33,757 nucleotides of DNA from a virus. This document shows positions 4,101 through 33,757 of this stretch, piece by piece (the stretch's first letter is position 1; each line of letters begins with the position of its first letter). A program made the translations under genes and the position numbers. Where the stretch lies: the IMG/VR virus record IMGVR_UViG_3300025168_000316, positions 1 through 33,757 of that record. One strand, given 5' to 3'. Below the pieces are notes generated by a model. The model did no database searches. It saw nothing but the letters and a program-made list of their open reading frames with translations, and was not told the DNA's origin.

Positions 4101-4121
4101 GTTTTTAGTTTTAAATTAATA

Positions 4122-4265
4122 TTATATTTTATCTAATAAGCCCCCTAGCATTAACAAAGCAATTGAACCTATAAAAAATATTATAAAAATAAAAGTATTG
4201 TTTAATATATTTTTTAAAGTGTTTTTTTTATTTCTATTAATTGGTTTTTGTTTTTCTAATATCAT
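4122..4265 (-). CDS. Small single-pass membrane protein, 47 aa
   Basis: The product has a basic, Asn/Lys-rich N-terminus (MILEKQKPINRNKKN) and one membrane segment of about 20 residues (FIFIIFFIGSIALLMLGGLL), then DKI. The charge pattern predicts an inside N-terminus. It lies between two genes of the early run with a 22-base gap on either side. The function is unknown. Small membrane peptides of this sort in phages include superinfection-exclusion factors and host-membrane modulators. Confidence 0.6.
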   Translation of the reverse strand: MILEKQKPINRNKKNTLKNILNNTFIFIIFFIGSIALLMLGGLLDKI

Positions 4266-4660: not shown

Positions 4661-4720
4661 CAGTTCCAACAGTTTCGCAACAGTTTCGGCAGTTTCGTAA
4701 CAGTTTCGTAACAGTTACAA
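4661..4720. repeat. Iteron-like CAGTTTCG array
   Basis: Six imperfect direct copies of cagtttcg(c/t)aa begin at 4661, 4670, 4681, 4690, 4701 and 4712. Spacings are 9, 11, 9, 11 and 11, a mean of 10.2 bases, so all copies face the same side of the helix. They lie in the 288-base gap between two genes and downstream of the terminator at 4742-4773. The outer copies are degenerate (cagttccaa, cagttacaa). The layout fits iterons for an initiator or sites for a cooperative regulator. Confidence 0.7.
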
Positions 4721-4794: not shown

Positions 4795-5073
4795 TTAATC
4801 GCTTATAAGATACTTTTGCTTATTAGCTGACAAAGACACTAAGTTGTTGCAATTAATCATTCTATGGGCTTGTTTTCGCATATCGTATACAGTTATAAGA
4901 TTATGTTGTGCAGGATTAAAATTAAGTCCAACACCCTTAACACCTTTCTTAACTTCTAGTCTTGCATTCATTAGTCTATGCGTACCATCTTTTTTTATAA
5001 ACTCTACGTTAAATATTTTAGATTTAGTATCGTAAATTATTTTTTTTGCTTGATCTGTTGTTATTGTATTCAT
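4795..5073 (-). CDS. SH3/Sm-like WYL_2-type protein, 92 aa
   Basis: The motif series VEFIKKDGTHRLMNARLEV, GVKGVGLNFNPAQHNLITVYD and KQAHRMINCNNLV is typical of the WYL_2 Sm-like SH3 beta-barrel family (PF10902, formerly DUF2693). That family is common in phages and mobile elements of Bacteroidota. Length matches the family. The domain is thought to bind nucleic acid or ligand, but no specific role is known. The start ATG at 5073 follows a leader with ACTAAAAACAA, and a terminator follows the stop, so this gene ends a transcription unit. Confidence 0.7.
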   Translation of the reverse strand: MNTITTDQAKKIIYDTKSKIFNVEFIKKDGTHRLMNARLEVKKGVKGVGLNFNPAQHNLITVYDMRKQAHRMINCNNLVSLSANKQKYLISD

Positions 5074-5110: not shown

Positions 5111-5166
5111 CCCCTAGTACCCCCCTGTACCCCCCTTGTACCCCCTATACCCCCCTAGCACCCCCC
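5111..5166 (-). repeat. Phased G-tract array, potential G-quadruplex
   Basis: The plus strand has C4, C6, C6, C5, C6, C6 runs beginning at 5111, 5120, 5130, 5141, 5150 and 5161, separated by 4-5 AT-rich bases. The transcribed-sense (minus) strand therefore carries six G runs, in a genome of about 30% G+C. Spacing is 9, 10, 11, 9 and 11 bases, a mean of 10.0. It overlaps the last codons of the 28-residue ORF and otherwise lies in the leader of the SH3-like gene. Four or more G3+ runs with loops of up to 7 bases meet the usual G-quadruplex rule in both DNA and RNA. Confidence 0.75.
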
Positions 5167-5241
5167 AAAGAGAATTGCTAGTATACATAAAAATGTAAGG
5201 GTAGTATCTGAAAAATTAGTTACTGGTAATTTGCCACTCAT
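5155..5241 (-). CDS. Tiny membrane peptide, 28 aa
   Basis: The ATG is two bases after the upstream stop (TAG-AT-ATG). The product is MSGKLPVTNFSD, then TTLTFLCILAILFGGC, a short hydrophobic segment ending in Cys. The TAG stop lies inside the first G runs of the array. Near-abutting position and a membrane-like sequence give some support, but the ORF is very short. At the final TTTGGGGGG a -1 slip would extend it with a Gly-rich tail through the array; this is speculation. Confidence 0.4.
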   Translation of the reverse strand: MSGKLPVTNFSDTTLTFLCILAILFGGC

Positions 5242-6717: not shown

Positions 6718-6777
6718 AGAAAAATACCGGCTATAATATAAAATTTGTGGTTAAAATGCCCTATGCAAAATACCTAG

Positions 6778-6810
6778 CAGTTTCACAGCAGTTTCACAGC
6801 AGTTTCATGT
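6778..6810. repeat. Three 11-bp direct repeats at the nuclease 3' end
   Basis: Copies of cagtttcacag start at 6778, 6789 and 6800 (the last reads cagtttcatgt). They cover the last codons and stop of the VRR-NUC gene and the bases just after it. The unit shares the core cagtttc with the array at 4661-4720 and has the same 11-base step. Confidence 0.6.
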
Positions 6811-7141
6811 ACCATTCTAAAGTTTCAATGCAGTCATCAAGACCTTTGCAAACAACAGCATAGTACCCTTCTTTGTTTAGATCTTCTATCCATTCCTTCT
6901 GATGTTTAGATGGGTAGCATTTCTTATCTGCTTTGACTTCTATAAACAATCCTGAATAATGTGAGTTAGTCTTTAGTATCTGCATATCAGGGAAACCCTT
7001 AACATAGCCAGTCTTTTTAGCGAGTATAGCCTGTTTCATAGAGGTTCTTATACCACCTAAACTGGCACAGTATCTTAGATTAGGGTATTGAAGTTGTATA
7101 TATGTACAAAATGCAGACTGTACTGTTGCTTCTTTATTCAT
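6794..7141 (-). CDS. VRR-NUC domain nuclease, 115 aa
   Basis: The PD-(D/E)xK core of the VRR-NUC family (PF08774) is visible: G49-F-P-D52, then G64LFIEVKAD with E68 and K70, followed by SKHQKEWIEDLNKEGYYAVVC and an amphipathic C-terminal helix. D52, E68 and K70 are the expected metal and catalytic residues. Length is that of stand-alone phage VRR-NUC proteins, which are thought to act on branched DNA such as Holliday junctions. The 8-base overlap with the upstream HTH gene suggests coupling. Likely roles are resolving recombination or replication intermediates before packaging. Confidence 0.8.
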   Translation of the reverse strand: MNKEATVQSAFCTYIQLQYPNLRYCASLGGIRTSMKQAILAKKTGYVKGFPDMQILKTNSHYSGLFIEVKADKKCYPSKHQKEWIEDLNKEGYYAVVCKGLDDCIETLEWYMKLL

Positions 7142-7343
7142 TGTAGGTTGTACCTTTGATTAGTTGGTACATGAGAGGTTGTGATACTTCGTATTTACGA
7201 GCAAGTGCTGAAACTGATATACCCCCCCTATGGTACTCCCCCCTTATCCCCTCTGCTTCTTGGAAGGTAAATTTTCTTTTAGAATAACCACCACCTCTGT
7301 TATCCTTTCTATCTGATGTTTTTATTTTTCTTATCTTAGGCAT
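7134..7343 (-). CDS. Resolvase-type HTH protein, 69 aa
   Basis: A very basic N-terminus (MPKIRKIKTSDRKDNRGGGYSKRK) precedes a helix-turn-helix of the Hin/resolvase class: EAEGIRGEYHRGGISVSALARKYEVS split around GGIS, ending LMYQLIKGTTYNE. Small stand-alone proteins of this type are frequent in phages as DNA-binding regulators. The gene contains G runs on the coding strand (7219-7246) that encode the GIRGEYHRGGIS segment. It sits between a DNA nuclease and small early genes, so it may regulate early transcription or position the nuclease. Confidence 0.65.
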   Translation of the reverse strand: MPKIRKIKTSDRKDNRGGGYSKRKFTFQEAEGIRGEYHRGGISVSALARKYEVSQPLMYQLIKGTTYNE

Positions 7344-8131: not shown

Positions 8132-8509
8132 TTAAGAATTATTTGTTAATTGTTTTGGTTCTGGTCTGTAATGTAATACTTTGCTAGGGTCAGCTCCTTG
8201 ATCTACTTTTGACCTAGCATCCCATATTAACTCCTTATGCTTTCTTAACCACTTCATGTATGTTGGTACGTTAAGATGTATAAAATCGCCATTGTGTTGT
8301 CCTCTAACACCTAAACTAAAAGCATTTTTAGCATCATCAAAATAAAAGTTTTTGTATACTCTTAATAAATCATCAGCTAAACTTTCTGCTAATACTTCTA
8401 ATGTTTCTTCTTCTACGTTATGCTGTCCTAACTCTATGTAGGTTTTACTTAATATGTCAATTGATCCTATAACCAATTCACCTCTATTCATTGTTTTAAT
8501 TAGTTTCAT
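8132..8509 (-). CDS. Conserved replication-region protein, 125 aa
   Basis: It is a helical soluble protein with FYFDDAKNAFSLGVRG, followed by HNGDFIHLNVPTYMKWLRKHK and a Pro-rich end (HYRPEPKQLTNNS). The pattern, a helical pair followed by G-x-R-G and an aromatic-rich helix, recurs in proteins next to initiators in flavobacterial phages and prophages as far as I recall. It overlaps the initiator gene by 14 bases. A helicase-loader or initiator-partner role is an inference from this linkage; no motif proves it. Confidence 0.55.
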   Translation of the reverse strand: MKLIKTMNRGELVIGSIDILSKTYIELGQHNVEEETLEVLAESLADDLLRVYKNFYFDDAKNAFSLGVRGQHNGDFIHLNVPTYMKWLRKHKELIWDARSKVDQGADPSKVLHYRPEPKQLTNNS

Positions 8510-9152
8510 ATTTTTGTTTTAGTTTTTGTTTAACATTCATGTTTTTCTGTAAATGTGAATGAATTTTACTCATACCCTTATCAGTTTTTTTTCTGTTTCT
8601 TTCCCAATTTCTTATTGCAGCTTTCCAGTCTTTCATCTTTGTCTTACCAACCATCCAACCTTTGCTCTGGTAAAAATCATAGAACTGTTCTGCATTAATT
8701 CCATTATCCCTTAAACGACAATAATCTTTTATTTCAATAACTTTAGGTACAATAAAATTTTTCTTTTTTATTATTTTTTCTTTTATTATACTTGTATTAT
8801 TAATACTTGTATTATTATCCTTAAAGTTTTCTTTAATACCCCCCTTTAAGTTTTCTTTAATACCCCCTTTAAGAATACTTATATACCTCTTATCAATTTC
8901 TTTACTACCCTCTTTATATGTGTAACTGGTTGATAGATAACCACTTGCAACTAATTCGCTTATCCACTTAGAAATAGTTACTTTACTCTTGTCATATAGA
9001 TCAGCAAAATATTTATTAGTTGCAAAGCAAAAGCCATTCTCATTAGTAAGGCAAGTTATTTCGCCATACAGCAGTTTCGCATTAGCTGATAAATTTTTAT
9101 CATATCTAACCTCAGCAGATATAATAGCATAGTAAGTTGGTTTCTGTTTCAT
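8496..9152 (-). CDS. HTH replication initiation protein, 218 aa
   Basis: The N-terminal 90 residues (TYYAIISAEVRYDKNLSANA, KLLYGEITCLTNENGFCFAT, then a winged helix KVTISKWISELVASGYL) match the HTH_36 (PF13730) type domain of phage and plasmid initiators. The C-terminal part has FYDFYQSKGWMVGKTKMKDW and AAIRNWERN, like the DnaD-type C-terminal motif that contacts the helicase. The two domains are joined by a Lys/Asn/Ile-rich linker that contains an exact duplication (LKGGIKEN twice). It probably binds the origin and loads the host helicase. The overlap with the downstream gene and with the HNH gene (ATGA) marks one operon. Confidence 0.75.
   Translation of the reverse strand: MKQKPTYYAIISAEVRYDKNLSANAKLLYGEITCLTNENGFCFATNKYFADLYDKSKVTISKWISELVASGYLSTSYTYKEGSKEIDKRYISILKGGIKENLKGGIKENFKDNNTSINNTSIIKEKIIKKKNFIVPKVIEIKDYCRLRDNGINAEQFYDFYQSKGWMVGKTKMKDWKAAIRNWERNRKKTDKGMSKIHSHLQKNMNVKQKLKQKYETN
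8824..8871 (-). repeat. 24-bp in-frame duplication in the initiator linker
   Basis: Two copies of a 24-base unit (minus strand, each with a G5 or G6 run followed by GTATTAAAGAAAAC) encode LKGGIKEN twice. The first codon is CTT in one copy and TTA in the other, so the G run differs by one base while the frame is kept. This is a recent-looking slippage duplication in a disordered linker. Confidence 0.7.
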
Positions 9153-9453: not shown

Positions 9454-9708
9454 TTAAAATGGTAAGTCATCTTTAGTATCAGTATTGTCTACTGTTTCTT
9501 GTTTAGGTGGCTCGTATGTATTCTCATATGCATAGTGAGTAGCACCCTTCTCAGATGGTTCTTGTCTCTCGCATATTACAAGTGAACACCACCCTTTGTT
9601 TTCTATTGCTTTAAGCTCTTCCATTTTAAAATTAGCTACAAGCATAGAGCCATATTTAGTTTTAATTTCTTTAATACTACTAGGCAAATAATTTTTCTTT
9701 TTTGTCAT
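9454..9708 (-). CDS. Minimal SSB-like protein, 84 aa
   Basis: The C-terminus reads DTKDDLPF, the acidic-hydrophobic tip by which SSB proteins recruit partners. The body (KTKYGSMLVANFKMEELKAI, then KGWCSLVICERQEPSEKG) fits a shortened OB-fold, about half the usual 150-180 residues. It should bind single-stranded DNA during replication and annealing. It overlaps the DnaA-like gene upstream by 29 bases out of frame and follows the annealing protein in the same operon, as in many phage recombination modules. A non-SSB protein using an SSB-like tail is the alternative. Confidence 0.65.
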   Translation of the reverse strand: MTKKKNYLPSSIKEIKTKYGSMLVANFKMEELKAIENKGWCSLVICERQEPSEKGATHYAYENTYEPPKQETVDNTDTKDDLPF

Positions 9709-10120
9709 TTCTACGTTTTTTTAGGTTATATAATTTGGTTAATTCTAAATTGTTTACTCTGTTTTGTTTTTCCAGAGCATCAATCTTTTCATCTAATGTT
9801 ACACTTTCTATTCTACTTAAAATTTTCTTATACAGTTCTGAGTCAAGCACATAGATTTTTTGGTAAAATTCTACCTGTCTGTAGTGATACAGTACAGATG
9901 CATGATGCAGATTTGTTATATCTCCAATCTCATGTAGTGTTAAATCAAATATTGTTTTAAGAACAAAAATATACATACGTTTAGCTTGTATAAAGTTTTT
10001 CCTTCTTGATCCTAAAAATATTTCATCTTCGGCAACATTAAATTTCTTTACTAATTCTTTAATTATTACTTCATGAAAGTAATGACTAAATTTTAATTTT
10101 GTTTTGTTTTCTTCGTTCAT
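9680..10120 (-). CDS. DnaA domain IV-like DNA-binding protein, 146 aa
   Basis: Residues 20-85 follow the DNA-binding domain of DnaA: KKFNVAEDEIFLGSRRKNF, QAKRMYIFVLKTIFDLTL, HEIGDITNLHHASVLYHY. The motif HHASVLYH (72-79) stands where DnaA has the signature D/H-H-x-T/S-V-L/I-H. The AAA+ ATPase domain of DnaA is absent. The remainder is a basic coiled-coil-like helix (KIDALEKQNRVNNLELTKL). It could bind DnaA boxes to steer or block the host initiator, or act as the phage's own origin-binding factor. Confidence 0.7.
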   Translation of the reverse strand: MNEENKTKLKFSHYFHEVIIKELVKKFNVAEDEIFLGSRRKNFIQAKRMYIFVLKTIFDLTLHEIGDITNLHHASVLYHYRQVEFYQKIYVLDSELYKKILSRIESVTLDEKIDALEKQNRVNNLELTKLYNLKKRRNDKKEKLFA

Positions 10121-33506: not shown

Positions 33507-33757
33507 TTAAGAAGTTAAAGAAGTTAATTGAGCATCTGTTAGTGCTGTCTTGTAGACTTGTAGTTGTTTTATTTTGCCCTCGAAATTATTACCACCATTA
33601 AAATCTAAAGCTAATTGTGAAAGTGAAGATGGAACATTACCACTTGTATCTGTTGCTACCTCAACACCATTTACCCATAAAGCAAAATCATCTTGTTTAA
33701 ACTTTATAGCTATTTTACTATAATTTGTAGCAGTTCCTACGTTGTGATTAGCAAAAA
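33507..33757 (-). CDS. Tail fiber C-terminus (82 codons, cut by window edge)
   Basis: The frame enters from the right edge (two bases of a split codon) and ends with TAA at 33507. It reads FANHNVGTATNYSKIAIKFK, then DDFALWVNGVEVATDTSG and LALDFNGGNNFEGKIKQLQV, ending with YKTALTDAQLTSLTS. This is the second half of a LamG-like domain (the W-V-N-G-V-E-V strand and the LQVYKTALTD strand). The first half is what breaks off at position 1 of the window. With a 5-base overlap of the two A-tracts the join is in frame, giving a protein of about 662 residues. Confidence 0.8.
   Translation of the reverse strand, partial: FANHNVGTATNYSKIAIKFKQDDFALWVNGVEVATDTSGNVPSSLSQLALDFNGGNNFEGKIKQLQVYKTALTDAQLTSLTS

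Follow-up and report, generated by a model that had tools for sequence, protein, structure and literature searches.

A conserved G-run array in an uncultured marine phage lineage and its possible recognition by an HTH_36 replication initiator

An array of six G-runs at positions 5111 to 5166 on the minus strand of a phage genome is a real, conserved and selected nucleic-acid element. It is found in every evaluable close relative, usually at a single place that is not tied to a particular gene. We tentatively propose that the array is a compact cluster of degenerate, iteron-like predicted binding sites for the HTH_36 initiator of the phage and acts as an origin or as an origin-linked locus of replication control, a reading that we prefer at a likelihood somewhat short of even. 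The sequence analysed, here called the window, is the IMG/VR viral record IMGVR_UViG_3300025168_000316 with 33,757 bases, 30% G+C and nearly every gene on the minus strand. Its terminase best matched that of the Croceibacter phage P2559Y (44%), followed by those of other Flavobacteriia phages. The source is a marine bacterial virus of a Bacteroidota phage group, and the lineage is abundant and uncultured. Since the truncated ORFs at the two ends of the record (1-1743 and 33507-33755) look as if one lectin-like gene had been split between them, the record may represent a complete, circularly permuted genome that was opened inside this gene.

The array in the window and among its relatives

The runs read as C on the plus strand and as G on the minus strand and are located at 5111-5114, 5120-5125, 5130-5135, 5141-5145, 5150-5155 and 5161-5166. 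Their lengths are 4, 6, 6, 5, 6 and 6 with start-to-start steps of 9, 10, 11, 9 and 11 (mean 10.0), and the linkers are TGCTA, TATA, TACAA, TACA and TACTA, written 5' to 3' on the minus strand. The six same-strand G4+ or C4+ runs per 56 nt were compared with 300 first-order Markov versions of the window, which gave a maximum of 3 and a mean of 1.8. This confirmed the original prediction that six regularly spaced runs are extreme for the base composition. Over the whole window, C4+ runs were ordinary in number (31, with 32 expected) and C5+ runs amounted to 10, with 5.8 expected. The anomaly is therefore the clustering of the runs, together with their length. The GC skew, taken as an origin marker, showed no change in the window, with all genes on one strand, and no DnaA boxes were found near the array. 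A small protein encoded at 9680-10120 consists mostly of a DnaA C-terminal (domain IV-like) HTH, PF08299, and was not detected in L024.

Conservation was analysed in two sets of relatives. Among the close relatives of the SH3-like gene (PF10902 WYL_2; 4795-5073, minus strand), which lies downstream of the array in the window, 18 of 18 held the array upstream, with 4-6 runs and altered linkers. To avoid selection by the array itself, 80 loci were fetched with a protein profile of the VRR-NUC nuclease (PF08774), whose gene is at 6794-7141 on the minus strand of the window. Five contigs ending before the site were left out, and two contigs end within the array. Each of the 78 evaluable loci contained a coding-strand array, which consists of G4+ runs except in L142, where it is weaker and made of G3 runs. 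The counts refer to distinct sequences and not to evolutionary events, as related contigs are not independent. In each of the 16 long records (up to 38 kb), the array was present at a single place with all runs on one strand, when three G-runs within the clade-A HTH gene are set aside. The original prediction had named kept runs with changed linkers as support for a function, and absence from close relatives as one possible refutation. In all comparable relatives the runs were kept and the linkers changed, so the array is functional by that criterion.

The position of the array differs between the clades. In clade A, to which the window belongs, it precedes WYL_2, as it does in a second group (L147, L148, L151, L155, L158). 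In the sister clade B it follows a small HTH gene and lies just upstream of VRR-NUC; clade C has it after VRR-NUC, with roughly half of the loci showing a reduced array or none. Such a change of place is expected of a genome-level site and makes a gene-specific leader function unlikely. The location in the leader of the SH3-like gene, 37 nt upstream of its ATG, thus holds for the window, whereas a role specific to this gene does not. Autoregulation of the SH3-like gene by the WYL_2 protein as the main role was rejected because in the sister clades the array is found at different genes and their WYL_2 homologue has none. Whatever the mechanism, a leader motif that seems gene-specific can be a genome-level element. 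Tandem repeats of 11 bp with the core GAAACTG (minus strand) were seen at 4667-4716 and 6776-6807, immediately 3' of the WYL_2 and VRR-NUC genes, and the same repeats (GAAACTGC) are found in L338-L341, again 3' of WYL_2.

The anatomy was compiled from 60 distinct arrays. The runs mostly had 5 G (163), followed by 6 G (78) and 4 G (50), the commonest linkers were TATA, CATA, ATA, TGCTA and TACTA, and the base preceding the run was A in 227 of 236 cases. The steps among the arrays of the relatives ranged from 6 to 13 with a mode of 9, and the best common period was 9.9-10.0 bp with modest coherence. At 10.5 bp the coherence was 0.67, compared with 0.55 for pooled random units, and a constant one-turn spacing was not observed among the relatives. 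Helical phasing is therefore loose. Of the phased protein-binding array that had been predicted, the protein-binding array may well hold, whereas the strict one-turn phasing does not.

Every member of the family that was seen came from an assembled viral contig, and no isolated phage carrying the array was found. Polaribacter phages gave a 37-base match restricted to the A+T-rich leader and not to the array. Four contigs (L101, L102, L030 and L037) end inside the array or within about 30 bases of it, which perhaps reflects population variation or a resistance of the array to assembly. In L335, L336 and L337, CCC(C) and a T7 tract come after the array, an arrangement that looks like an intrinsic terminator with a choice of G-runs as pairing partners. 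As an explanation of the array the terminator was rejected, since the C-run and T-tract follow only the arrays of L335 and L336, and similarly L337, and not that of the window.

Sites in the initiator gene and the linker word across phyla

The core of the array, A-GGGGG-TAY, recurs within the gene at 8496-9152 on the minus strand. It encodes a replication initiator, termed Rep36, with an N-terminal HTH_36 domain (PF13730, E 1e-10). Rep36 matches PHROG replication initiation families, and its N-domain is 45-57% identical to that of the initiators of many Bacillota phages. Two sites are present in the linker of the protein, 3.7 kb from the array. Site 1 is CTTAAA-GGGGG-TATTAAAG with its run at 8863-8867 (minus strand; encoding LKGGIKEN), and site 2 is CTTAAA-GGGGGG-TATTAAAG with its run at 8839-8844 (minus strand; LKGGIKE), 23-24 bp apart. 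The two runs sit in the codons of KGGIKENLKGGIKEN. Nearly all close relatives retain both AAAGGGGG(G)TATTAAAG sites at the DNA level. An AlphaFold model of Rep36 showed a winged-helix N-domain (mean pLDDT 70, linker below 50). In a fold search that relied on this one model of moderate confidence, RepA_N initiator domains ranked best (Z 9.7, rmsd 3.6 over 91 residues), and unrelated winged helices reached a Z of about 9. A profile search of solved structures with the initiator found no sequence relative at E 0.01, and a single-sequence search gave one weak match, Lmo1757 (4hn3, E 0.028).

The flanks of the array runs match those of the in-gene sites and differ from those of other G-runs, which we count in favour of the initiator. 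An A precedes the run in 0.87 of the array units and 0.97 of the in-gene sites, compared with 0.42 of the other coding-strand G-runs of the same genomes, and TA follows it in 0.54, 0.61 and 0.12, respectively. The core A-G(4-6)-TA is thus common to array and gene and enriched over other G-runs, while the outer arms of the in-gene sites are absent from the array and many of its units read CATA or ATA.

The analysis also covered, with no motif assumed, the initiator genes of the Bacillota phages and 68 distinct initiator genes that were fetched from bacterial genomes by protein. De novo counting of 6-mers over nt 251-460 of the 68 genes, relative to the rest of each locus, gave ATAGGG, TAGGGG, AGGGGT, GGGGTA, GGGTAT and GTATTA as the most enriched words, apart from those of A and T only. 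The enrichment was about 10-16-fold. The words assemble into ATAGGGGTATTA, with TTTAATAGGGGTATTAAA and TTCCATAGGGGTATGGAA as examples. They are found on either strand and in more than one codon phase, often inside longer dyads such as TTTAATAGGGGTATTAAA. The core of the sites in the window's initiator gene is therefore the enriched word of initiator linkers across phyla, where the in-gene sites are single G4 runs. In these initiator genes (L175-L254), the linker DNA showed an enrichment of about 15-fold for the dyad ATA-GGGG-TAT on either strand, which makes the dyad a candidate iteron of the HTH_36 initiator class as a whole.

The best-supported mechanism, which we infer from these features, has the initiator binding the array, the array acting as the origin and the strands opening after binding. 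The winged-helix N-domain of Rep36 would recognise the core A-TA-G(4-6)-TA(T/C), and several initiator molecules would load side by side on 3-8 sites that are 9-10 bp apart. Loading could occur on the array alone or jointly with the two sites in the initiator gene. The loaded initiators would open the adjoining A+T-rich leader, and their C-domain would recruit the helicase. In clades A and B, the array is universal where the HTH_36 domain is present. Clade C offers a natural domain swap, since its initiators (L318-L337) have the same C-domain joined to an unrelated N-domain without a Pfam match, and their genes lack in-gene G-run sites. In this clade the arrays are reduced or lost in many loci and kept in several.

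Several observations count against the initiator. The main ones are that L318 and L024 keep a five-run array though the N-domain of their initiator is unrelated, and that the outer arms of the in-gene dyads are lost from the array units. In addition, the array sites are spaced by 9-10 bp and the in-gene sites by 23-25, and many clade-B units read GGGGGCATA or GGGGGATA instead of GGGGGTAT. The array did not co-vary with the length of the in-gene G-runs, outgroup phages with the same N-domain had no array, and the GC skew showed no change that would mark an origin. The array was absent from the A+T-rich bacterial-genome loci of distant initiator relatives.

A broader proposal, which we regard as possible though doubtful, is a portable, dual-coding replication site. 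One array per genome would be read as DNA by the initiator, would have moved among at least three positions in the early region and would in one clade also be translated as a Gly/Arg-rich tail of the HTH protein. It would derive from the ATA-GGGG-TAT dyad, taken as the original iteron within the genes of PF13730 initiators throughout the bacterial phyla. If the initiator reading is right, the array shows where an abundant uncultured phage lineage replicates from, and ATA-GGGG-TAT is the predicted site for a large class of HTH_36 phage and plasmid initiators, most of them without a mapped origin. It would also be a DNA site under selection while it is translated and while it moves between genes.

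Reading frames through the array and competing explanations

The strongest rival is a structural one, which we consider rather unlikely but which could coexist with initiator sites. The G-runs on the non-template (coding) strand and in the mRNA would fold into a quadruplex or a hybrid RNA:DNA quadruplex stabilising an R-loop, and thereby prime replication, stall the polymerase or promote recombination. With six runs of 4-6 G and linkers of 4-5 nt, the window has at least four runs of at least three G with short loops and could form a G-quadruplex, as had been predicted. Among 71 distinct complete arrays, 64 have at least four G3+ runs, the coding strand holds the array in each clade, the runs stay while the linkers vary freely, and arrays persist in clade C without the HTH_36 N-domain. 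However, 7 of the 71 arrays contain fewer than four G3+ runs even with the flanks included, namely three. An intramolecular quadruplex is therefore not what is strictly conserved. The orientation is weak evidence, since G-runs outside the arrays are also biased to the coding strand (334:99). Moreover, a pure quadruplex does not need the non-random flanks, with A before and TA after the run, and the single G4 in-gene sites of other phyla are unable to form one alone.

Next, the array might act as an RNA leader element that controls translation of the following gene (WYL_2, VRR-NUC or a zinc-ribbon ORF), for example by a quadruplex block that is relieved by translation of an upstream ORF. We consider this improbable. 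A start codon follows shortly downstream of the array in every clade, at 2-64 nt in clades A and B and in the second SH3-type group. In clade B, the frame of the small HTH protein crosses the array and, in 38 of 39 distinct cases, stops at the end of the array beside the VRR-NUC start, which is the layout that translational coupling needs. Against this, the next gene differs from clade to clade, and the leader had no match in Rfam at the gathering threshold; tRNAs or known RNA families were not found either. The predicted folding was no better than that of shuffled sequences (z -1.09), in a scoring that leaves quadruplexes outside. In the window, an unlisted ORF of 28 amino acids (MSGKLPVTNFSDTTLTFLCILAILFGGC, then stop) extends over 5155-5241 on the minus strand. 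Its C-terminal half is hydrophobic, most clade-A relatives have the same ORF, and the 5'-most run (5161-5166) provides its Gly-Gly codon pair (LFGGC, then stop). A second unlisted small ORF, at about 4116-4260 on the minus strand, has a hydrophobic C-terminal segment with a Gly-Gly encoded by a G-run (LLMLGGLLDKI, then stop).

The translation of the array in clade B also underlies the reading that it primarily encodes protein, which appears more improbable still. The array would encode a Gly/Arg-rich (RGG-box-like) tail of the HTH protein, and the leader copy in the clade of the window would be a displaced relic. The C-terminal tail of the small HTH protein is indeed encoded by the array in the sister clade, and it is variable and RGG-like, for example GGIGGIGGYRG and RGGTRGYRGASRG (e.g. 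L048, L011, L138). The HTH frame is open far more often than each of the other frames (5 of 39), and when runs and linkers were shuffled it was open in 16 on average and in 23 at most. However, GGG makes up 63% of the Gly codons of the tail, whereas its share is 6% for the HTH body, 5% for VRR-NUC and 1.1% for the structural genes of the window. The nucleotides themselves are thus under selection in spite of being translated. No frame was kept open more than in shuffles in clade A, where the array is nonetheless universal. The -1 frame was open in 12 of 14 arrays, compared with a mean of 9.4 and a maximum of 14 after shuffling, and for this reason a programmed -1 frameshift joining the 28-amino-acid peptide to a Gly-rich tail was rejected for the clade of the window. 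The window's small HTH protein (7134-7343, minus strand) is without the tail and has three G-runs in its codons, at 7222-7228, 7238-7243 and 7248-7251, which encode GIRGEYHRGGIS.

The original prediction had pointed to further same-strand runs as a sign of a wider role. The wider pattern stands, as the sites in the initiator gene share the core of the array, with the correction that all of these runs are in reading frames: the run at 4141 in LLMLGGLL, those at 7222-7251 in the HTH protein and those at 8839 and 8863 in the initiator. Finally, a neutral minisatellite growing and shrinking by slippage would account for the differences between close relatives in the number of runs (3-8) and in their length (mostly 4-6). 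It is very improbable, since no evaluable relative lacks the array, even in clades with VRR-NUC proteins of only about 71-75% identity, and since the array occupies different sites and obeys frame and flank constraints.

Relation to known replication systems

The initiator gene shares two features with in-gene iteron origins of the DnaD/RepA_N-like type. Its product has an N-terminal winged helix, and repeated sites are found in the interdomain linker, two in the gene of the window and likewise in most relatives and across phyla. In phage lambda, the iterons of O are dyad sites inside the initiator gene; they differ from those of the window in sequence and protein family and have no G-runs. 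The G-rich R-loop elements of the mitochondrial CSB II type have clustered G-runs on the non-template strand, whereas the flanks of the array look like protein sites.

In the staphylococcal plasmid pSK41, the origin lies within rep and the linker that it encodes is dispensable, and in pPR9 an initiator with a pfam13730 (HTH_36) N-domain supports a working mini-replicon (PMC5703833). As is proposed or modelled for Rep36, the initiators of pSK41 (RepA_N) and pPR9 (pfam13730) combine an origin in rep, origin DNA that codes for the linker and a winged-helix N-domain. They have no second cluster of sites, and the likeness is one of fold and layout, with a fold match barely above that of unrelated winged helices. 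The replisome organizers ORF13 of TP901-1 and Rep2009 of Tuc2009 bind direct repeats inside their own genes, and these repeats act as the origin (PMC8965321). They resemble Rep36 in having a DNA-binding N-domain, repeats in the linker-coding DNA and a C-domain of the helicase-loading type. Their N-domains and repeats differ from those of the window, and an extragenic G-run array is not reported. We therefore rejected the rep genes of TP901-1 and Tuc2009 as carriers of the window's site.

A further likeness is found in the lactococcal phage phi31.1, which has an N-domain of the window's type together with GGGGGTATTAAAG repeats; TP901-1 shares only its C-terminus, without the repeats, a natural swap that we count in favour of the initiator. 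In both phi31.1 and phage 63301 the sites are present only in the gene, unlike in the window with its extragenic array. The N-domains of the phi31.1 Orf269 and the 63301 replicase are homologous to that of Rep36, at 41% over 132 aa in the case of 63301, and both genes share the GGGGGTATTAAAGAAAA repeats, which phi31.1 carries twice, in the same words as the window.
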